Positions 6,802 through 23,816 of a stretch of 25,078 nt of DNA are shown here, piece by piece. The position numbers and the translations under genes are program-made. Source of the stretch: Pezizomycotina sp. ARF18 (lineage: Eukaryota > Ascomycota); NCBI GenBank assembly GCA_002224055.1, contig AZLU01000133.1, positions 1 to 25,078 of the forward strand. The letters run 5' to 3'. Within the stretch, counting starts at the first letter, position 1; each line of letters opens with the position of its first letter. Under the pieces are notes generated by a model. That model did no database searches. It was not told the DNA's origin and saw only the letters and a list, made by a program, of their open reading frames with translations.

Positions 6802-7328
6802 CCCGAAAGGTCAGCAGAAAAGTAATTTTGATTGAATTTTGCACAGCCAGCCAACCTGTTGATACTTTCTTTCCTTTTTCCTCTCCCTTCATTCTGTCTC
6901 TTTTCTTCCTCTGATGTCTTTGAATGGGAAAGAAAAAAAAAAAAGGTATCTTTCTGCTGCGGACACGATATGAAGTCTACCTTACTCCTTCACAGCCAGA
7001 ATTGGTGTGCCAAATAGACTGACAAGGCTCACTTTCACTCCTTAAGCAATATCGTAATAAAAGGTTTTAAAGAATAATAGCAACCTTTTCTAGTACTCTC
7101 TGAGAGCTTGTACCCAGACCACATTCAAAGTTCAGTTACCTTATTAGAGAAAAAAAAAAAATTTAAAATCAAATAAAATGAGAAAAGTACAGCCAGGATT
7201 CCAAGCAAAAAAAGGTGAGGAAAAAAAAAAAATTATTGACTTTCAAAAAAAAAAGTTAAAAAATTCTATAAAAAGAAAGAAAAAACTCAACACCATAAAG
7301 AAAAAATTTATTATTGCGTCTGGATGTT

Positions 7329-7353: not shown

Positions 7354-7362
7354 ATGAGTCAC
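7354..7362 (+). promoter_or_regulatory. Gcn4/CPC1-type site (CPRE), ATGAGTCAC
   Basis: The core TGAGTCA fits the general-control element bound by Gcn4, CPC1 and CpcA (TGASTCA). It sits 133 bp before uORF1 of the gene predicted to encode that same factor, which suggests autoregulation. It lies downstream of the TATA-like element, so either that element is not used or the site is close to the transcription start. Confidence 0.6.
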
Positions 7363-7409
7363 TTTCTCCTTCTCTTCTTTTTTTCTGTTCCTTCTATTTC
7401 CCTTTCTTA
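7363..7409 (+). promoter_or_regulatory. CT-rich block, likely transcription start region of cpc1
   Basis: About 47 bases almost entirely of C and T follow the CPRE-like site. Pyrimidine blocks of this kind commonly mark the start of transcription in filamentous fungi. If transcription begins here or later, the ATG at 7495 is the first start codon of the message. Confidence 0.45.
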
Positions 7410-7494
7410 CATTCTATTACTTATAACCGCCCACATTGTCAGACCATATAGATATACAAGACCAGATAGTAACTAATAAGCAGTGCATCGTGCC

Positions 7495-7506
7495 ATGGCT
7501 GCTTAA
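7495..7506 (+). CDS. uORF1 of cpc1, three codons (Met-Ala-Ala-stop)
   Basis: The sequence ATGGCTGCTTAA is a complete 3-codon reading frame with G at -3 and G at +4. Yeast GCN4 uORF1 is also three codons (Met-Ala-Cys-stop), and a 3-codon first uORF is reported for Neurospora cpc-1. The downstream flank is AU-rich, as expected for a uORF that permits reinitiation. After it comes a 234-nt stretch without any ATG, a distance that would allow ribosomes to regain initiation competence before uORF2. Confidence 0.8.
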   Translation: MAA

Positions 7507-7740
7507 TCGCGCTTCTAATATAACAAATCACTTAGCCGATAACCAAGCTCAATCTTTCAAGCTGTCTTCCCACAGTAAAATTAACGTAAACCAAATCTCC
7601 ACTTTTACACCAAAATTTCTGCTCCCCAGCAGCATCGAGAAGGATTCCTTTCGGTCAGATAGCGCATTGTCGCCAGTAGCTTTCAAAGCCAGCACAATTC
7701 CTTCCTCCAAGTTGTCTTCCTCAACCATTCCAAATTCAAG

Positions 7741-8013
7741 ATGTCTTTCCACACTTCCTCCCAGAAGCGAACCCGTACGCCTTCCCCTTCCATTCAGCAG
7801 TACACCCAGCAGAACCACACCCAAGCGATCCTGCAGGACTTTCAGCTCTTCGATTCAGTTCCAGTTTCAGTTCAGTTCAAGCTCCAACATCGACTCGCGC
7901 TCAGGTCAACTTTCCCGAACGCCTGCCGACGACTTCTCGTTCGGTCCCTAATCAATCAACTTCCACTTCCAGTTCTCCTCGCACTCGTGTGGGCGAGTAT
8001 ATTGAAAATCTAG
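7741..8013 (+). CDS. uORF2 of cpc1, about 90 codons as read
   Basis: This is the only ATG between uORF1 and the main start codon, with A at -3. As written it encodes about 90 residues beginning MSFHTSSQKRTRTPSPSIQQ. Known filamentous-fungal second uORFs are a few dozen codons, so this one is long. Because single-base indels are common in this sequence, the true stop may be elsewhere. The neighbouring frames also remain open and protein-like further on. Role inferred from the family: reinitiation here under amino-acid sufficiency keeps ribosomes from the CPC1 start. Confidence 0.6.
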   Translation: MSFHTSSQKRTRTPSPSIQQYTQQNHTQAILQDFQLFDSVPVSVQFKLQHRLALRSTFPNACRRLLVRSLINQLPLPVLLALVWASILKI

Positions 8014-8612
8014 GATACCCATCTTCTCTACCGTCTCTCAGCAACAACCGGTTTACCTCATCGAACGCCGCCGCCGCGCAGGGGCAGTTCACCTCGTCTT
8101 CCCAAGTTCAGGAATATTCGCAGCAACAGCACGCTTCTCGTCATCAGCACAGGCACAGCAAGCACAGCTCAGCTACAAAATTACCCAATCAAGGTCCGCA
8201 TCGGACGTACAATCTATTCTGCGACACTACCAGAACCACGAAGAAAAGAAACACCAAGTTTTGAGACTCCAGCAAGGTATTTTTGCACCCCCAACCTTGA
8301 AAACATTTTAATACACCCATCACATCTTGAAAAGGAAGAAAAGAAAAAGAAAAAACGACTGCGGCCACAATATTAAATACTATTAAAGAAATACGAGAAG
8401 TACAAGTACAAGGACGAGCTCAAGCTCGAGAGAAAAAGAAGACGAAGCAACTAAAAAATCTTTTGAAGAATATTTAAATTTACCACCTTCCCCACAAAAC
8501 TCAAATACTTCCTTCCCATCTCTATCACCACAACCAACGTACCTAGAGAATCCAAAAATACCTTTGCTAAATATTATCCTCCCCACTTCCGCTCAGATCA
8601 TTTGCTGCAACC

Positions 8613-9344
8613 ATGGATCTTGACGAGTGGCTTGCCGCCGACACCGGCGTGCACACCGATTTCTCATCTCCGCACTTCACCACCATCAACGAGCCAGCAA
8701 TGCATACCGTCTCTCCCCAAGACCTCGATCTCTCAATGCAACGCGTCCCGTCCACAGCCCCGAACTCGGCGGCCTGGACCTCCCTCACTTCTCCGTTCCT
8801 CGACTCGCCGTCGGACAGCTTCGAGACCTCCCCGCTCTTCTCGGCGGACGGTCTCGACGCGGAGAACTGGGAACCCCTCTTCCCGGACGCTCAGAGTTTC
8901 GGTATGGAAGCCTGCCTCTCGAATGAAGGTGTATACATCAACCCCGTTGAAGCGGAAAACCCCAAATCTTCTGAAATCCTCCCCTCCACGCTCCGTCCCC
9001 CCTAGGGGCCTCGTAGCTGAGGAGCAGGACGAAAACGACAGCACCTCGCCATCCGCCTCTCCGCTCGTCGGCACCATGAGCAGTGCCGGCAGCAGCAGTG
9101 CCGCACCAAGTCTGGGCGCCACTCCTCTGTTGCGGGCGTTTCCGCAAGGAAGCGTTCCGGTCCCTTCCGCTATCGTCGTCGAAGATCTCAGTGATATCGT
9201 CGCCGTTAAGCGTGCCGCAATACCTTGGCCGCTCGCAAGTCCCGAGCTCGCCGAGTAGAAAAGTTTGAGGAAATGGAGAAGAGGATCGAGGAGCTTGAAA
9301 GCGAAGTCGAGCACTGGAAGAGGCTCGCACAGGCAAACTCTTGA
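8613..9344 (+). CDS. cpc1: CPC1/CpcA/Gcn4-type bZIP activator of amino-acid biosynthesis
   Basis: Nuclear transcription factor of cross-pathway (general amino-acid) control. The start ATG at 8613 has A at -3. Residues 1-130 are rich in S, P and acidic residues and contain TSPLFS (72-77) and NWEPLFP (85-91), typical of the CPC1 activation region. The end of the gene encodes the bZIP: a lead-in PSAIVVEDLSDIVAVKRA, a basic region with the N-x7-R pattern (RNTLAARKSRARR) and a short heptad zipper (EKRIEELESEVEHWKRL), stopping at 9342-9344. Total span is 243 codons, close to Aspergillus CpcA. Two frame breaks interrupt it: C6 at 8997-9002 has one base too many, and near 9214-9216 a C is missing inside the basic region. 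They cancel, so start and stop are in one frame. Both lie in C runs, so I think consensus errors are likelier than a dead gene. Confidence 0.93.
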
Positions 9345-12242
9345 CTAGTGTCGGGTAACACCACGCTGGACAAGTTGCGGAGGAATATAATCTTTAAAAA
9401 CAACAAAAAAATAGCGATAGTTGCAATCACTGTGGTGGATTATGTTTAACCTTAGCCAGTTAAGGGTTTGCCTTTTTTCAATCGTTCTTTGAATATTCTT
9501 ATTATTGTCTTTTTATGTTCGCCTCTCATTTCAATCGTTTTCATGCTTCCAGAAAAAACATTTGCTTCCCTTTCTTTGCCTATTCTTCCCTATAACTACT
9601 TATTACTACTGGTCTTTTAGTCTATGGTGTCACGACAATTTTTTCCTTCTCTCTTGTTCTACTACTATTCTTTTTATTATCATTATTATCGGGAAAAACA
9701 TCTTGAATTTGGAATTGTTCTCTTCTAAAAAGGAAGGATTAGGAGGAACAGACTCTTCTATGGGTGGTAAAGTGGGATTCGTCTTTATATTTTATCTTTC
9801 AAACTCTTTCAACCCTTTTTTTGTTTACTTTCGCAAACGACTGTCTAGTTCAATGTTCGTTCACAGTTCTCTCTAGTAAAGATATAGAAAATCCACAAAA
9901 AAACTTGTCAATTCAGTTCACTCAGTTCCTCAAAAATACAAAAATATTATTTCTAAAAAAAAAAAAGGCTTCTTTACATTCGTATGATTTCCTCACGAAA
10001 GTCATGCTTTTCTCTAGTACTTGCTGTGCACTTGCGTATTTGCTTCTGAAATATCGCGTGTTCATGCTTCACGATAATTTTATGATTTTGATTTCCTTTG
10101 ACAACCTAGATACCTCATATAAAACTCTCAAAATCGCAACAAAAATTCTTCCTGAAACACTTCAGCAGCTTCCAGCGATTGGTTTTTTTTTTTCTAAGCC
10201 AAAGTTAACGTCATTATAATAAATTCTGCAGTCCAGTAAAGCTGGTCAAATGCAAGTGTTTCGATATAATATCTCATGCATGCCGCAAAAATAACACGCA
10301 CGCATCTTAAAACCTAAACTACGTGGAGCCCTTGTGGGGAAGATAACAGTTCACGATACTCCATACATGGCGTTGAAAAAAAAATTTCTTTTCCTTTTTT
10401 TTATAATTCCTTCTGGAAGAAAAGCGTGCAGTAGTACAAAAAACCAAGCCACGAAGAAAGTATCCCTGTGACGTTGCAATGCCTCAAGAGGGAGGCATTG
10501 GCGGGAAGTAGTGCTGACAAGGCAGATTTTTAAAAGCAAAATAGAAGGGTTGTCTTTATCGAGACTAGACGCCGTGAAGGAATGTGCATGTAGCGCTATG
10601 GATAGACATACATCTTTGGGAATTGGTGAGAGATTAGAATGAAAGTAGTGGTGACCAGCAGATACAGATTTATGACCTATAACTTACGCGCTTAGATATT
10701 ATACATCTAACGATGGTCAATGTAGAACGAAAAAGAATAAGTAATATAAGCGGACAAGACAGTCGCTACCCAATTCATGTGAAAAAAAAAAATGCGTCCC
10801 AATTCCGTATATCTATATTTAGTGATACCCGGTGCTGGGATCGGGGTGCTTCGTCGAAGAAGGGTAACTTTTTTCCTTGAGAATTTATTGAGATCTATTG
10901 CCGATGGAATTTCCAGCTCTTTAATCATACGTGCGTAAGTATAATGTTCACCAAAATGAGACTATTAGTATAATGAGATATACGTAAATAAGGTCCCCTA
11001 CGATATGTCCCGCGAATAGGCAATATACGTTCTGCACGTCATCGTGATCCTGTAAATCTTCATTTATAAATTAGTATCAGGGCAATGCCCAATTGCTCGT
11101 ACCATACTGTAAATATATTCATTTACAACCAATAGGAAGTGAAGGGCGGCACCGGTAGCTGATAATATTATAATATCATTTAGTTAATATGGCTTGACCT
11201 TACGGACTCTCGTTTTCTTCACTTATATATTGGCCCATGGGTCTCTACAGAGGAACAGGTTAATATAAACCTAATAGAAACATCTTCTTTTGACGGCGGA
11301 TTTTTTCGCTCAATTTCCTTCTCATTGCAAGCCTTTTCTTTCTGTGTACAATATTTAAGTTAATACATCGTTGTGATTACGAAATTTTTAGAGCTAACTC
11401 ATTTTGATTAACATAACATGATGAGTTCTTTGAATTGCAGTCCTTATACAAAAATAAGTTGAACGTACAGTTGAATATATAAATATATGACTGTAGGTTT
11501 TGTTTATGAGCTTTGCGATAGTGTTTTCACGATTTACCATTCGCAATAATGATGATGGTAACCATGAAGAGGTAGAACGTATATTTTACTCTCAGCTACT
11601 CATCGTACCAATCACGAAATCCTTCCTATTCCTCGGTTTGATATAACAGAAGCGATATAATATATTATAACCAGCTGCATTATCGATGTGCAAATCGGAT
11701 GATGCCAAGGGTACCACAGCTAATCTACCTATTTACCATTCTATAGCATGCTTAATAATAATGTCGGTAGATTCGTTTGGAGAGGGGTGATGTTTTGCAG
11801 CATCTCCAGTCTCGTGTGTAACAAATGCTTTTCTGGGTGATAGCTCTAATTTGAGAGAGATTTACGGGCTTCAGTGGCCGATATCATTTGGATCAATGCG
11901 CCATCTCTTAACGTTAGAAACCTACATTTGTACTAGTATTATTAAACAAATCACTTTGGATCCATGTAACTGTGTTTCTACTTTGTAAGAAGTGAAACAG
12001 TCTCAATCTAGCCCTATGAATCCTCCGCAAAAATAAAAAGAGAACATGTTTTCGTATTTACATTGCAGGGACCTCATCCATATTAACAAATTGTGTTTAG
12101 GCTTTCTGTTCGAACATAACTTGGCTCGGAGTTTAGAGAGCAAAAACTCCAGGATTTTCTTCAGTCCGTCTTTAGTCATGTTGAGGACCATCAGGCTTAA
12201 GTACATCGTTTTTATGCTCGCTTTTATGCTTCCAGTATCGCT
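9345..12242. other. Long AT-rich spacer
   Basis: The first part is T-rich and probably includes the 3' untranslated region of cpc1. I found no protein-like frame, RNA gene or repeat element in the remainder. Open frames at 9505-10219 give F/L/S-rich low-complexity translations. Many short TATATA-like stretches occur between 10900 and 11760. Confidence 0.6.
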
Positions 12243-13416
12243 ATGCGACCGGGTCAGGAAGTCAAACCAGAACCGGTGAGTGGGGAGTTAGACGAGGTCC
12301 TGGCTCGGTGGAAGGAATCAAGGAGAGCGGAAAATCTCGCGATCTCCACCTACCTAAATGGCTCGTTAAATTCATAAAGCGCACTAGGACCCTCAGCAGG
12401 TACTACCCGTGCCAAAATCACCGAACAAAACGTACTCAAAGCCATTAAGCGTAACGAAACCGTCTTCGATATTGTATTTCTCGCTACGGATGCACAAACA
12501 GCTGCAGATAATGCCACCAGAGTCAAAACTCTATAACTACCTCTCCGAGTAGACTAAAAGCTTACAAGCCAAAACGAGGATATTGAGGTCGAAAATATAA
12601 AGAAATTACCGACGCACTCACTTTTATAACGAAGACACGGAAGAATATACTACTTTAGCGCCCGATCTCCAAATTCAGAACAACGAGCCAGTACCGAGGA
12701 AGGGCTAAAATGGCTCGAGTTAACGTGTAACAAGGTAGTCAATATCGTCGAGATTATCGAAAAATGGTTCGGGACATCATCCGGCGAAGTGGCCTTTAAC
12801 CTGAACTTATACTTCAAGGCGCTTCTCAAGCAGAGAACCCCGACAACCATGCGTGGTCCGCCTTGGTGAAGAAGCTCGATGAGGATATCGCCCGGGAACA
12901 AAAGGCTAAGCTAGAAGAGATGCCTTTCGGTGCACCCTCGCTGGTTCGTACTGGCAACAAGCATGAGGTAAAGCTTAGGCTCATTCAAGACATGTTGGAC
13001 CGCCTAGACGATATTTTAAACGTAGGCTTCTCCGTCCCGAAATGGGCAGTAAGGGGTGCTTTGGCTATCCCAATTTGATGACTCCCTCTGCGATAACCCG
13101 GCGAGTCGGAGCAGGTGGGTCCGCAAAGAAGAGGTTTTTAAAAGGCGCACCCGAAGGGATAAAACTCAGGCGCAAAGCTTGGCTAAAGTTGACAGTATGG
13201 CGAAAGGGGCAGATGGAAGCACGGAATTGGCGAGGTAATTGCAAAGGCCATCGCGCCGGGCAGGGAGCTCAGACATGAGAACACGGCATTGCGAAGACCG
13301 AGGGACTATGGAGCTCGCTATTTGCATTCTTGGGGAGGAAAGAGCCAATGTCACCTCGCGACCGATGGGGAGAATCCGATAACAAGCAGGACAGCAATGG
13401 AGAAGAAACAGTGTAG
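12243..13416 (+). pseudogene. Interrupted protein-like gene, unrecognised
   Basis: From ATG 12243 a balanced, charged translation begins (MRPGQEVKPEPVSGELDEVL). It is interrupted by a stop at 12375-12377 but continues in the same frame with good composition (ITEQNVLKAIKRNETVFDI). Further coding-like blocks are WLELTCNKVVNIVEIIEKWF near 12720-12770, KKLDEDIAREQKAKLEEMPF near 12867-12926 and a probable coiled coil (RELRHENTALR) near 13262. The last block ends at TAG 13414-13416. Joining them needs several frame changes and tolerates at least two apparent nonsense codons. I recognise no family. No retroelement motifs are visible. It could be a lineage-specific gene with consensus errors, or a decayed gene. 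The 5' end may lack an upstream exon. Confidence 0.5.
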
Positions 13417-14336
13417 AAGAAAATAGCTAGATCCTGTCCCGCGCAAGTCCTAATTCTATTATTATACTTTTCTTGAACTTCCTATATTCACGAGATACAG
13501 TGGGGCTCTAAAAGCAAGCAAGCGGAGTTGAGAAAAGAGATATCAAGTTTCATGAATGAACATGCTTGTCATTAACAAATCAATAATATCGATATTTCGA
13601 TTTGAGATTATAGCTACAGTTGAGATTATAAAGGATCTAACCACGCCGGTCCTTTTATGTATTGCGAATAGAGGAAAGATTGGAAAGGAAAGAGCTTAGT
13701 ACCCCATAAGAGAGGGTCCCATTTCTTTATGGCTAGGGGGTCCCAATATAGTTTCTCGGCATGTAAGCCCGGCGAAGAAAGTGAGAAATGTAGGCATCAT
13801 TGTAAGGAATAGGCCATTCTCGAATTCCAAACTCGCGCTTCTAGCAGCAAACTGGTAAGTGAACAATGTTTCGCACAAGCATTCCTGGCACCGATCTCTG
13901 ATAACAAGGTCGAGCTGGTTTTATTCCCCGCAAAACTTTAATACTCGGAGAAATCTAGAAATTTCGGTCCAAGTATTAACAGCTTTCGTTTAATTCCAAA
14001 TCAGCGACTAAATGTCTTACTTCACGGCAGGTTTTTTTCTCGAGCTGGACTAGGGAAGGACTAGGAAGAATTAGTATACTGTGTCTTTTTTCCAGGCGCT
14101 ATATTGGAATAGCCTGTCTCACGAATGTTACTTTGCTGAGAGCTAGAGAAGAGAATAAAAAAAAATTTTTTTTTTTACCATTGTTTAAAAACCAGCTCAA
14201 CCTTAATGTACATATGAATGATAAATGGCTATATAGCATATATTCTGCCTAGATCGGAAGAACGTTCGTAGCAAAAAAAAAAAAAAAATATCCTAAGAGC
14301 TCCAGGACACTCGGAGTCATTCTCGATCAAAGAAGC

Positions 14337-14368
<32 letters not shown>

Positions 14369-14508
14369 GAAACCAATTCCAGCAGTATTGTTGCTACTCT
14401 GCGGCGCCGCCAACGCGGGCAAGAACCTGGTAACCTGGAACGCCACGTCTTGTATTTGATCGCGAGAAATATCAAGCAGGAACTCAAGAACCCTGTATTC
14501 CGGGTGAC
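13417..14508. other. Spacer with a short direct repeat and A-runs
   Basis: No gene is recognised in most of this stretch. TTGAGATTATA occurs twice, at 13602 and 13620. Adenine runs lie at about 14273-14287 and 14339-14361. From about 14400 the sequence becomes protein-like on both strands, so the following gene may begin before 14509. Confidence 0.5.
14339..14361 (+). repeat. Poly-A tract, 23 A
   Basis: Run of 23 adenines immediately upstream of protein-like sequence. Confidence 0.9.
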
Positions 14509-16096
14509 GTGGAGTATAGTACCTCTCCGCTCCGAATCCTGAGAAAGAAGGAGGCGTCATACGCCGCATCAGAGCAAGCCCTGCGAAGCGCCTTACCGCT
14601 ACCGTCAGACGACGATGACGACGATATATTAGTAACGAAGGAAGAAATAAATGACGAGGACGGTTGGAGTATTACAAGGAGGAAGACGCATCAACCGAGC
14701 ACGAAAATCCCCGTTTAGATAAGGATACCCAAAGAGGGTTGAGGTACTGGTATGCCGTTCCGGAGCCTACTTCACGCAACGCGTATTCCATCCATTACCA
14801 AAGGCCGGGTCCGCGGAAGCTGCCTGAAATCTCAGACACGGCACAGAGCACGGGAAGCACAGTAGCTCGGAGCTACTAAAGCTGATTGCTGCGCCGAAGC
14901 AGAAGCCTTTACAGCCAGCGATGGAGTTTCGAAGCCCCACGCCGGACTCGATCGAGCCTATGTCTTCCTAGATGCTGCAAAGGCACCTCGCGGTTCGAAG
15001 AAGATGTTATTCGAAGCGTGGGGAGATGCGAACGCGGTGAAGGTAGGTTCGTCAATGACGGAAGTTGGATTACCTTTCGTACAAAAAGTACATAAGAATA
15101 AAGAGGTTGAGTTGCTAAACAATAATGGGAAATTCTACGGTAAGTACGACTATTAATTGAAAATATGTATATCTGGGTATAATTTATATAGTATTTGACT
15201 TCACGATAAAGAATACTTAGCCCGTTTGATGCTCCTGCCACTTATTTTATTATTCTGCGTAGCGTAGTGGCTCAAATACCATATGTGTACCAATGTATGC
15301 CGTGAAACTAACGAAGTAATACGGCATCTCACAGTATGCAGCAACACAGGCGAACCATACGACGATGGCAAATTATCTTCAAAGTCTATAGCTTTTGACC
15401 CGTCCAAGGCTGTGGCCAAGTCAAGCTGCTATTTGCCTCCTCACCCCTATCACCACGTAAACTCACCGTCAAAGCGACCGAAGACCCGAACGTTATCAAA
15501 TGTCAAGATTGCGGAAAGACGTATAAACTATGACGAATGCCGCGGGCCTTTTCAAAGACGTCACGTACGCTTCGAACGTCCCGGAGGAAAAGTCAGCAAG
15601 TCGGGTTTAACTTCAACAACAACAATAAAAAACCAGCGATCAGGCATGCAGACGACCCGCGGAAAATACTGAAACCGAACGGGAAAGTAACGCACCGGTA
15701 AATTTATACCAACCGCTGACAGTTCCCGACGAGGATATCAAAGTGGAGGAAGTCAAGATCGAATTCGCGAGAATCACGAACGGCAACCGCTTTTCAGATT
15801 CGATCCGGCAGTGTTACATCGGTTCGAAAATATACGTATACCTGGCGCAACGCGATGATTGGGACATGCCGCCGTTGTAGGACTATCACGGCGATAGGAG
15901 TCGGACGCAGCGAGAGTACAAAAAGTCACTGGATGCTTAAGCGCGAATAAATTGTGGAGATGAAGGACGCACGCAGAAGCAGATGGATAAGATCATGCGT
16001 TTCATGAAGCAGAGGGCGAGCGAGATGGCAAGAAAGCGAGGAAATCGTATTGGTGGTGCAGATGTTTTGCTCGTAAAAGGGTCAGTGTTGGATTAG
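14509..16096 (+). pseudogene. Interrupted gene with zinc-finger-like patterns, unrecognised
   Basis: Protein-like blocks run along the plus strand in changing frames. They are an acidic segment (PSDDDDDDILVTKEEINDED, about 14605-14664), a block with KKMLFEAWGDANAVKV near 15000, and a 3' part with DEDIKVEEVKIEFARI (near 15740) and QMDKIMRFMKQRASEM (near 15983), ending at TAG 16094-16096. A clean intron lies at 15140-15220. Two zinc-binding-like patterns are visible. Near 15286 there is C-x3-C-x8-H-x3-C followed by TGEPY, like the linker of C2H2 fingers. At 15501-15512 there is CQDC followed by GKTY. The spacing of the first is short for a classical finger. I do not recognise the protein. Several frame changes and stops interrupt it; the cause (decay or consensus indels) is undecided. 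Confidence 0.42.
15140..15220 (+). other. Probable intron, 81 nt
   Basis: It starts GTAAGT and ends ATACTTAG, contains a TATTAAT-like segment and interrupts a coding-like block that ends NNNGKFY. Its length matches the introns of the recognised genes in this window. It supports the view that 14509-16096 is, or was, an expressed gene. Confidence 0.6.
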
Positions 16097-17820: not shown

Positions 17821-17857
<37 letters not shown>

Positions 17858-20243: not shown

Positions 20244-21566
20244 TTATTGTTGCCGGCGAAGGTCGGTCCCTCCCACTCCCGTTCGGAGCGGGTTGATTCG
20301 TAGTATTCTCGGCTTCGGGGAAAGCTCCGAGGTCCGCGTCCCACGTATCGGTTCTTCAACCTGAGAAAAGAACAAAGCAAATGTGTATTGGAGAAAGAGG
20401 CATAAGAGAATTGCGAGATAGAAAAGACACCCATAAGAATGTGAACCGTTTATCAACAAACATATCGCCATATTTCTAAACAAAAAGCAAAATTAAACAA
20501 AAGCAAAATACCAAGAACGCTGAAAGGAAATGCATTCTATACCTCCACCATTTCCCACCCTCGATACGTACTTCGTGGTCTCTTAGTTTCCGCATCAGAG
20601 CTAAAAAGTTGCTTTCTTTGAATTTTTGCGATGTGTTGTCGCTCAGCGTATCTAGTAACTGCCTGCTGTTCTTGCAAGCTCGTCCGGATCCTCCGTTCCT
20701 CGACGGTCTTTTCCTCTTTTTTCTCCACTTGCTCATGAACAACAGGCGCTTGCCCTGAGCGATGATCGCCTCCTCGGAAGCCGCAATCGCCGCTGCTATC
20801 TGCGCCTCTTCGAACATACGATCGAAATCCTGGCGCTAAACTGTGCCGCCACGTCACCCTGGACCTGCGTCATTCCTCCGAACTGTTGCTGCTGCGCTAT
20901 ACCGCCCATAACATACCACCTCCAGCTGCGTACCCTCCGAACTGCATGGCCATCTGCGCACCCATCGGCGATCCCATCATTGGTTGTTGCTGCTGCTGTA
21001 AGAAATCCGCGCCCATCCTCCCGTCTGCTGCTGGTGCTGCTGGTGTGCATCTGGTGACTGGACCGTGGCCGTGCGACCGGCGACTTTTGCTGCGCTATAT
21101 GCTCGTCGTGAAGATGATGCCGGCGAGCCGCTATATTCAGGTTCATAAAGTCTGCCACCCAAGCCGCCCATTCTGGGGTTGTGGCGACTGCCGGATGGTG
21201 CATGGTGAGGAGAGGCTGAGAGAAGGGGAAGCGCTGTGCTGGAGGTGCGGCGGACCTGTGGTATTCCAGAGAATTGCTCGAACTCAGCCTCAAGGAGGGA
21301 CGCACCAGGAGCGGGAGATGATCGGAAGTTCTGAACAGAAGAGTTTTGTATTAGTAGCAGATTCCTACGGTTAGGAAGTAACGTACCGTTCCTTCACCAA
21401 AACACGAGATTTAAAGCAACGGTAATGGTAATAGATGACGAGGACTTACTGTGGCTGATGCGGCCGCCGGAGTAATCTGTCCTGCTGTAGTGCTTTACTG
21501 CGGAGGCATGTTTCTGGAGGTTTGTAGCGGGTTTGATGGCCCGCACATCGAAGAAGAGGAAGCCAT
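20244..21566 (-). CDS. pex20: Peroxin 20, PTS2 import co-receptor
   Basis: In filamentous fungi Pex20 works with the PTS2 receptor Pex7 and shuttles between cytosol and the peroxisomal docking complex. Exon 1 (21566-21450) encodes MASSSSMCGPSNPLQ, with the conserved N-terminal cysteine at residue 8 (used for receptor recycling in the family), then LQQDRLLRRP. Exon 2 (21330-20543) begins NFRSSPAPGASLLEAEFEQF. It holds a W-x3-F pattern (WVADF) of the Pex14-binding kind, Q/M/G-rich sequence, and the C-terminal block QLLDTLSDNTSQKF, NFLALMRKLRDHEVRIEG. A third exon (20360-20244) after a TTTTCTCAG acceptor is likely; one frame there reads GAFPEAENTTNQPAP. Without it, the frame stops at 20537-20539. 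Several single-base gaps break the frame, for example the T run (gene-sense A run) at 21521-21523. The gene is next to whi2 but I see no functional link. Confidence 0.88.
20361..20542 (-). other. Probable pex20 intron 2, 182 nt
   Basis: In gene sense it starts GTATAG and ends with a pyrimidine stretch and TTTTCTCAG. It joins GEMVE to VEEPIRG. If it is not spliced, Pex20 ends MVEV with a stop inside this segment. Confidence 0.5.
21331..21449 (-). other. pex20 intron 1, 119 nt
   Basis: In gene sense it starts GTAAGT and ends TCTGTTCAG. It separates the CGPSNPLQ-QQDRL segment from the FRSSPAPGASLLEAEFE segment, which are consecutive in Pex20 proteins. Confidence 0.85.
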
Positions 21567-21894: not shown

Positions 21895-22924
21895 CATGGG
21901 TCAGTAGTATTTTAATGGCTTCACCTCAAAACATGGAATAAATGATTATTATTAATATATCACACAATCAAAGGAACCAACGCTCAGGAGATATTACATA
22001 GCTAATAAAATATTATAAAACTTCAAAATACGTACAATACATGGAATCACTTCAAGAACTTGTAAAAGCAATTAAAAAAAAAAACGGCACGGCTCTCTTC
22101 AGCATCGGCGCACCAGATATCCAATACCAGGGGTCGGTAACCTGTCGTAGAGCCGCCAATTTTGACCCGCATCAAGCTCTCGTATCCATTTACCAAGCCG
22201 CATCTGTCTACCCAAGTCTTCCCTCTTCAAGATCTTGTCCGGTGATCCTGGTCCCTTTCAATCCGCAGCTGCGAGTGGGGGTTATGAGGGAATACGCTTG
22301 AACAACAATGCCTTTGTTCCTTTCCCTTCGTCCATGTTTCTGCGTTTTCTAAAGCTTTAGATATAGCAGTGTGCATACGATGCCTCTAGAATTGTGAAAT
22401 ATATATTGCAAGAGTTGCTTCATCTTTAATGCATACACCTTTTGGAGTTGCTTATTACAAGCCTCGGCCGCGCCGTTCTCAATAGTATCTTTACGATGAA
22501 TAATAATCGTCCCGGAAGTAATCCACCACTTGGCAGAGAGAGTGCCATCGGTTTCTTCACCTTTTCGCTTAATTAATGGTTTCGTTACACCCCGCTGGTC
22601 ACTATAATTTTATTGCTTAACATTTTCGCCTCGGCTCGGTTTATTCCCCCACAACTTCGACGACGACAGGCAAACATCCAACCGCCTTATCCATGAGGGA
22701 ACTGTCATACCCACTGGACATCGTCAAACAAACACCCCCGCAGCCCAGGTGCAAGGTATTTCTATCCCTCGAAGTCGCACGATCGATCCTTTTGGATCAT
22801 CGTATTCTAAGCAATTGAGACAACTCCACTAAAACGCAATTGCAAAACCAATTCCACCAACTCAGGACCACCGCAAAGACAACAACCTTATCCAGCTCAA
22901 AAAAAAAAAAAAAAAGTAAAAAAT
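21895..22924. other. Divergent spacer between pex20 and the hydratase gene
   Basis: Head-to-head promoters should lie here. An open frame at 22041-22301 has no recognisable motif. A run of 17 A (22899-22915) ends ten bases before the hydratase start codon. Confidence 0.5.
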
Positions 22925-23816
22925 ATGTCGTCCTCAACGCTCACCCCTCCACCCCTAAAATACGCCATCGCTACCTTCCCAGACCGAACGTCCTCCTCGT
23001 CACCTTAAACCGCCCGAAGGCCCTAAACTGCATAAACATGGAAGGGAACAAAGAGCTGACGACCTCTGGCAATGGTACGACGATACCCCCAGCTTACGCA
23101 TAGCAATCATAACGGGAGCCGGTAGGGCGTTCGCGCCGAGCGGACCTGAAGGAGTGGAACGAGCGGCAGAGTAAGAGCGGTGAAGGTGGCGCTAGGCCCG
23201 TTCGGTGTTCTTGCGGTGGGTTTGCGGGTTATCTAGGAGGACGGAAAGAAGCCTGTTATTGCGGCTGTTAATGGATGTGCTTTGGCGGAGGGATGGAAGC
23301 GGTAAGGAATTTGCTTTTATGAAACTCCATTTCTACTATCTTTTCGCTGATTGTGTGAAACATTTTTCAGGCTACGAACTGCGACCTCGTCATCGCGGGC
23401 AAGTCCCGCCGTCTTCGGCCTGCCAGAAGTCAAAACGCGGCGTAGTCGCCTCTCGCGGGCGCACTCCCTCGCGTAATGCGTAACCTCGGTCTCCAGCGGC
23501 CTCAAACTAGCCCTAACCGGCCGAACTTTAGCCCGAGGAAGTGTTACAGTGGGGTTCGTAAACAGGGTCGTCGAGGACGGGAAGGTGGTCGAGGCGGCGC
23601 TGGAGCTCGCCGACCAGATCGTCGACAACAGCCCCGATAGCATCATCAACACGAGGCGGGGTTAGGTACGGCTGGGAGGCTGGTAGCGTCGAGGATGCCG
23701 TTAGACTGTACATGGATAGGGATCATAAGGCTCTGGACAGAGGGGAGAATATCAAGGAAGGGTTAAGGGCTTTCGTGGAGAAGAGGAAGCCGGTTTGGAG
23801 GGATTCTAAGCTCTGA
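22925..23816 (+). CDS. Enoyl-CoA hydratase/isomerase (crotonase) family protein
   Basis: The crotonase family hydrates or isomerises acyl-CoA esters, as in fatty-acid or branched-chain amino-acid breakdown. From ATG 22925 the protein begins MSSSTLTPPPLKYAI, then NVLLVTLNRPKALNCINMEG, IAIITGAGRAF and ADLKEWNERQ. Next come KPVIAAVNGCA with GGGMEA (oxyanion-hole glycines), an intron, then ATNCDLVIAGKSAVFGLPEV with the LPE motif of the active-site region. The C-terminus includes LQWGFVNRVVEDGKVVEAAL or similar and ends WRDSKL at 23814-23816. About 274 codons remain after intron removal, normal for the family. At least six single-base gaps break the frame, for example at 23058 (a G missing) and at 23131-23140 (two bases missing around the FCAGADL-equivalent). 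Location (mitochondrion or peroxisome) cannot be told. No PTS1 is evident at the C-terminus. Confidence 0.88.
23302..23370 (+). other. Hydratase intron, 69 nt
   Basis: It starts GTAAGG, contains GCTGATTG as a possible branch site and ends ATTTTTCAG. It joins GGGMEA to ATNCDLVIAGKS, continuous in crotonases. Confidence 0.9.

Follow-up and report, generated by a model that had tools for sequence, protein, structure and literature searches.

A probable GCN4-type two-uORF leader and cpc-1/cpcA gene in a frame-shifting draft assembly of Pezizomycotina sp. ARF18

A fungal leader that opens with a three-residue upstream open reading frame (uORF), and offers only one further AUG before the main start codon, raises the question of whether its gene is controlled by reinitiation in the manner of yeast GCN4, and of which gene that may be. 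We addressed this question in bases 1-25078 of contig 133 (the window, that is, the whole stretch of 25,078 nt that was analysed), which belongs to a genome of 46.4 Mb in 408 contigs. The reading that we hold with good, though not full, confidence is that of a cpc-1/cpcA gene of a filamentous ascomycete, which would have the standard two-uORF leader and N-terminal extension and is seen here in a frame-shifted assembly.

Start codons of the leader and the gene behind them

By exact scan, the plus-strand ATGs observed around the leader lie at 7178, 7324, 7354, 7495, 7741 and 8613; the first three sit further upstream, leaving two AUG-started uORFs when counted from 7495 on. uORF1 (7495..7506, plus strand) reads ATGGCTGCTTAA, that is ATG GCT GCT TAA or Met-Ala-Ala-stop, with G at both -3 and +4. 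A sequence-only reading of this DNA had reported a 3-codon uORF1 at 7495, and the ATG at 7741 as the sole one on the plus strand in 7498-8612, and the exact scan agrees on both. uORF2 (7741..8013, plus strand; A at -3, T at +4) encodes 90 amino acids plus stop as assembled, and the main ATG, in good context (A at -3, G at +4), opens the first segment of the main ORF, 8613..9005 on the plus strand, which as assembled closes with a stop at 9003-9005. In a survey of 100 Pezizomycotina cpc-1 genes (PMC5487733), uORF1 spans 3-6 codons and uORF2 35-70 codons, stops included. Counted in this way, uORF1 has four codons, inside the published range, and uORF2 as assembled has 91 (273 bp) against the published 35-70.

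Approximately 135 nt upstream of uORF1, the plus strand carries TGAGTCA (7355..7361), which matches the GCN4/CPC1 binding element (GCRE/CPRE). TGAGTCA-type sites number three in the window against 2.45 expected, a count without significance by itself. Promoters of cpc-1/cpcA bear elements of this type (PMC5487733; PMC3199737), and the site at 7355-7361 is a possible candidate for autoregulation.

Beyond its first segment, the main ORF continues on the plus strand in another frame at 8950..9258 (approximate start), as delimited by open frames and codon usage, and ends in a third segment (9222..9344, plus strand) where Pfam, PDB and genome searches place a partial basic region and leucine zipper, followed by TGA. 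All four PDB sequences matched by this bZIP piece (9222-9341) at E <= 0.01 were GCN4, while its score against PF07716 (bZIP_2) was 21.1 bits, under the cut-off of 22.3, with the basic region cut by a frame break. A C-terminal GCN4-type bZIP is present, and we assign the gene by this homology to cpc-1/cpcA, the GCN4 homologue. Searched against the 46.4 Mb genome, the piece matched here and nowhere else. A family-level search for bZIP domains picked up a single bZIP elsewhere, on contig 79, but not cpc-1 itself, whose domain is cut. A second copy of the gene was considered and rejected, the bZIP piece matching one place and the leader matching itself and one partial copy. Rfam returned zero known RNA elements at gathering thresholds and ARAGORN zero tRNAs; among viral contigs the leader peptide gave 17 pattern matches, and among prokaryote genomes the first main-ORF segment gave 165, with no relative among either set, neither being a fungal collection. 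A genome search with ribosomal protein L3 gave zero matches, and the PDB chains among the listed matches of the Hsp70 comparison are named as Hsp70 only; we read the host as a filamentous ascomycete from its type of leader, its GCN4 homology and a RIP-like partial copy of the leader.

The likeness to Saccharomyces cerevisiae GCN4, whose uORF1 is Met-Ala-Cys, lies in a uORF1 of the form Met-Ala-X-stop and in a homologous bZIP. Yeast differs in having four uORFs and no N-terminal extension (PMC5487733). Set beside the Neurospora crassa cpc-1 gene described there, the present gene, when counted from 7495 on, likewise has a very short AUG uORF followed by one that is long as assembled, a leader frame open for a CPC1 extension, and a main ORF that ends in a GCN4-type bZIP; unlike that gene, it has frames broken as assembled, more nucleotides between uORF2 and the main AUG, and a likely intron. 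In Leptosphaeria maculans cpcA (PMC3199737), uORF1 encodes MAAI and lies at -541, uORF2 is 159 bp long at -344, TGACTCA stands upstream, and the gene is intronless. The leader studied here likewise has a uORF1 beginning Met-Ala-Ala, uORF2 next and a TGA(C/G)TCA-type element upstream, whereas its uORF1 lies at -1118 and its uORF2 at -872, uORF2 measures 273 bp as assembled, and an intron is probable.

Frame breaks in the assembly and the length of uORF2

As assembled, the main ORF consists of three segments in changing frames and is broken at least twice. The leader had been taken to imply a functional gene; that implication is not supported, the main ORF being interrupted as assembled by the stop at 9003-9005 with the bZIP in another segment. 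The breaks are most simply caused by frame-shifting assembly errors. Across 8,681 nt of Hsp70 coding sequence from five loci, we counted at least 19 frame jumps at places too tight for an intron, an average of at least one per 457 nt. Same-frame neighbours merge into one row in this count, such that a difference of frame in 19/19 pairs holds by construction; what carries information is the density, no fewer than 19 jumps per 8,681 nt. One example of frame-jumping coding sequence is found at 53036-54818 of contig 49. Beside cpc-1 itself, an enoyl-CoA hydratase/isomerase-like gene (22819-23662, plus strand) appears to be split over frames: two of its four tested pieces match different parts of the ECH_1 family in different frames, both weakly (positions 5-30, E 0.098; positions 158-198, E 0.011).

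Alternatively, the breaks could be real mutations in a decayed cpc-1 pseudogene, a reading that would suit a main ORF broken at least two times as assembled, and also the state of the leader's sole other match in the genome. This partial copy, found by a search with the leader, covers about 355 bases of contig 13 (318812-319166; 1501-1855 of our stretch L003, and also in L054) and is 89% identical to 7934-8290. Among its substitutions, C-to-T changes number 19 and G-to-A changes three; CpA sites account for 13/19 of the former, compared with 42/113 of all C. This is the pattern of repeat-induced point mutation, and with the sequence that it adjoins the copy reads as a RIP-like, chimeric gene fragment. 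However, the bZIP piece has no other match in 46.4 Mb, similar breaks occur in the five Hsp70 loci, and the broken segments of the gene keep gene-like codon usage. We consider a pseudogene very improbable.

Assembly errors, the preferred explanation, also bear on uORF2. The sequence-only reading gave it about 90 codons and called this unusually long, which is accurate for the letters as assembled; the length itself is not to be trusted, because coding sequence in this assembly shifts frame on average once or more in 457 nt. It is quite possible that a jump falls inside uORF2 (273 nt); with a single one, uORF2 would close at 7951 (70 codons), 8005 (88 codons) or 8264 (175 codons), according to the type and position of the jump, and the first of these equals the upper limit of the published range. 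For the odd length of uORF2 as for the interruptions of the main ORF, assembly errors are the best explanation. More generally, the lengths and frames of uORFs are unreadable from a draft in which the frame shifts at intervals of a few hundred bases, and at an average of one jump or more per 457 nt, any ORF-based finding from this assembly is unsafe.

Long runs of A or T are common across the window (for example, about 31 A at 17824-17854) and are possible sites of sequencing error. The region 12200-15900 looks like degenerate, frame-broken coding sequence; Pfam searches of two pieces within it, 14330-14671 (minus strand) and 15268-15669 (plus strand), returned zero matches.

Coding-like sequence and a probable intron in the leader

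Leaders of this kind are reported to encode, in addition, an N-terminal extension of CPC1, which the sequence-only reading missed. In the surveyed set of 100 cpc-1 genes (PMC5487733), the main frame stays open upstream to beyond uORF2, such that CPC1 can be extended from non-AUG codons; an AUG able to start the extension was never seen, and relative to the main ORF uORF2 lay in frame -1 in 100/100 homologues. By this -1 rule, the extension is predicted here in the frame whose codon starts are 2 mod 3. That frame is observed to be without stops over 7427..7948 on the plus strand, spanning uORF1 and most of uORF2, with seven and eight stops in the other two frames; we had noticed it open before we met the -1 rule in the literature. 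Among 2000 dinucleotide shuffles of 7427-7948, it was open in 10, and any frame in 28. Over shorter intervals, the same frame was open in 51/2000 shuffles (7508-7948), 116/2000 (7508-7740) and 1012/2000 (7741-7948, uninformative), and the open frame over 7508-7740 is weak by itself.

Codon usage offers a second line of evidence. We built codon models from 28 of 40 listed stretches, the 12 with a stop being dropped (8.4 kb, later 12.1 kb), a small training set from Hsp70 and kinase loci only; in a leave-one-out check they assigned the right frame in 93/99 windows of 120 nt. Codon paths, which permit frame jumps, were run eight times over 7400-9450 with a plain model (M1) and one adapted in composition to disordered protein (M2), and coding sequence was called in the leader in all eight runs. 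Every run called a coding-like stretch at 7663..7887 on the plus strand (starts 7666-7699, ends 7884-7953) in frame 1 mod 3, that of the 7741 ATG, which begins upstream of that ATG. The paths also mark 7890..8168 on the plus strand as coding-like in frame 0 mod 3, that of the main ATG, with 5/8 runs continuing in this frame to about 8150-8170 and variable ends; over 7953-8189 the main-ATG frame is open by chance in 290/2000 shuffles. Scored by itself, 7507-8290 reached 13.3 with M2 against a shuffle maximum of 2.7 (0/100), and 0.0 with M1, no better than shuffles, while 7507-7740 by itself scored 0.0 with both models. Coding sequence in the leader is likely on these scores, but model-dependent.

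The two lines of evidence conflict at 7663-7887, where the -1 rule predicts 2 mod 3, a frame open throughout 7427-7948, yet codon usage points to that of the 7741 AUG. Taken literally, the codon signal would put the 7741 AUG in frame with the extension, making it the start of a longer CPC1 and not of an inhibitory uORF, with a choice between long and short protein. The preference for this frame in 7663-7890 holds also upstream of the AUG, synonymous-only scores are 12.7 in it compared with -5.1 and -12.6 in the other two (sums over seven rows), and all eight codon paths cross 7741 in it without a jump in 7741-7884. On the other side, uORF2 is out of frame, always -1, in 100/100 published homologues (PMC5487733), the genome's jump rate makes a jump within 7741-7890 possible, and the models were trained on few loci of two kinds. 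We consider an in-frame 7741 AUG unlikely. If it were real, the response to amino-acid starvation would be a switch between two forms of the transcription factor, one long and one short, in place of a switch between off and on, and the locus would show a repressing uORF turning into an alternative start.

We favour instead an assembly error nearby and a misleading codon signal around 7741, because all 100 relatives are out of frame and because of the jump rate and the small training set. The weakness of this favoured explanation is that it needs a jump in the 7741-7884 region of which codon usage gives no sign, 0/8 runs placing one between 7741 and 7884.

Between uORF2 and 8613, the main frame as assembled contains stops at 8262, 8298, 8328, 8475, 8544 and 8568, and to this extent the letters depart from the published rule of no stops. 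Five of the six (8298-8568) fall inside a probable intron in the leader at 8277..8596 on the plus strand, delimited by AAG/GTATTT, a GCTAAA, a pyrimidine tract and a terminal CTCAG that lies 16 nt before the main AUG. The segment is A-rich and has stops in all three frames, and none of the codon-model windows centred on 8172-8616 was coding-like in any frame. Counter to an intron, 4/8 codon-path runs place coding sequence inside 8277-8596 (8386-8430 twice, 8482-8602 once, and from 8577 once). uORF2 lies 872 nt from the main AUG, compared with 344 nt in L. maculans, a difference that counts against the favoured reading; with these 320 nt removed, the distance would shrink to about 550 nt. If 8277-8596 is an intron, the last third of what had been described as an ATG-free leader would never be scanned; the sequence-only reading missed this probable intron, and hence that the region is probably unscanned. 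On sequence statistics, both the CPC1 extension and the intron are probably real.

Start-codon scarcity and the proposed control

The sequence-only reading had expected about seventeen ATGs between uORF1 and the main start and saw strong selection against extra starts. In the 1,115 nt of 7498-8612, one ATG is present against 12.2 expected from base composition and a mean of 4.9 in dinucleotide-preserving shuffles (one or fewer in 42/2000), which puts the figure of seventeen too high. The six orderings of A, T and G in the stretch occur 1 (ATG), 5 (TGA), 5 (TAG), 8 (GAT), 11 (GTA) and 15 (AGT) times. Among 4,793 plus-strand windows of 1,115 nt (step 5), one had an ATG count this low, namely the stretch itself, and on the minus strand of the same contig stretch there was none in 4,793. 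For comparison we sampled five other stretches of the genome (L054-L058; 49.9 kb, 1,699 bases masked), of which L054 had been picked for another reason; 0/1,664 windows of 1,115 nt on both strands had fewer than three ATGs (mean 16.0), and 1/1,362 ATG-to-ATG gaps, at 891 nt, exceeded the leader's 872 nt.

Divided at the probable intron, 7507-8276 has one ATG against 8.2 by composition (as low in 3/2000) and 2.4 with dinucleotides kept (as low in 580/2000), and 8277-8596 has zero against 3.5 by composition (53/2000) and 1.9 with dinucleotides kept (196/2000). The stretch is ATG-poor beyond base composition, and much of the shortage tracks its C-rich, TG-poor make-up. Selection against AUG in the leader is only weakly shown, because dinucleotide-preserving shuffles reproduce much of the depletion, and the claim of strong selection fades with the 580/2000 of 7507-8276. 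Compatible with any other reading of the locus, the scarcity could be a by-product of this make-up without selection, as the average of 2.4 ATGs in the shuffles of 7507-8276 and the existence of an 891-nt gap without ATG elsewhere, among the five sampled stretches, would suggest. Against a by-product, the whole stretch is as low in just 61/2000 shuffles (7507-8612) or 42/2000 (7498-8612), the TG shortage may itself be a product of selection, and published leaders (PMC5487733) are likewise without further AUGs able to start the extension. We find a pure by-product conceivable, if short of probable.

Of the GCN4-type reinitiation leader proposed in the sequence-only reading, the parts borne out are uORF1, one further AUG, the main AUG and a GCN4 homologue, while reinitiation itself enters by analogy with N. 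crassa and yeast. In N. crassa extracts, uORF1 allows ribosomes to reinitiate and uORF2 does not (PMC5487733). By this analogy, 40S subunits would resume scanning after translation of the three-residue uORF1; with amino acids plentiful they would reinitiate at 7741, translate uORF2 and be lost, and upon eIF2 phosphorylation they would bypass 7741 and start at 8613. The same leader would probably encode the N-terminal CPC1 extension from non-AUG codons, and here the assembly, and probably also the one intron (8277-8596), would divide the extension among several frames. Counterparts of the N. crassa non-AUG starts were found in neither of the two most distant species of the survey (PMC5487733). 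This architecture is already known in about 100 related fungi, and the locus is most likely an ordinary example in a poor assembly, by which a well-described control system gains a further fungus.

Two minor observations concern neighbouring sequence. The partial leader copy on contig 13 adjoins sequence that we take to resemble the first DNA-binding domain of replication protein A; Pfam gave an OB-fold match there at E 0.026, below the cut-off, and no other match. In the window, the piece at 20800-21350 had no Pfam match, and next to it, on the minus strand at 20479-20835, we observed a weak match to the PEX18/PEX21 C-terminal family (E 0.031, below the cut-off), which we assume may mark a peroxin-20-like gene.
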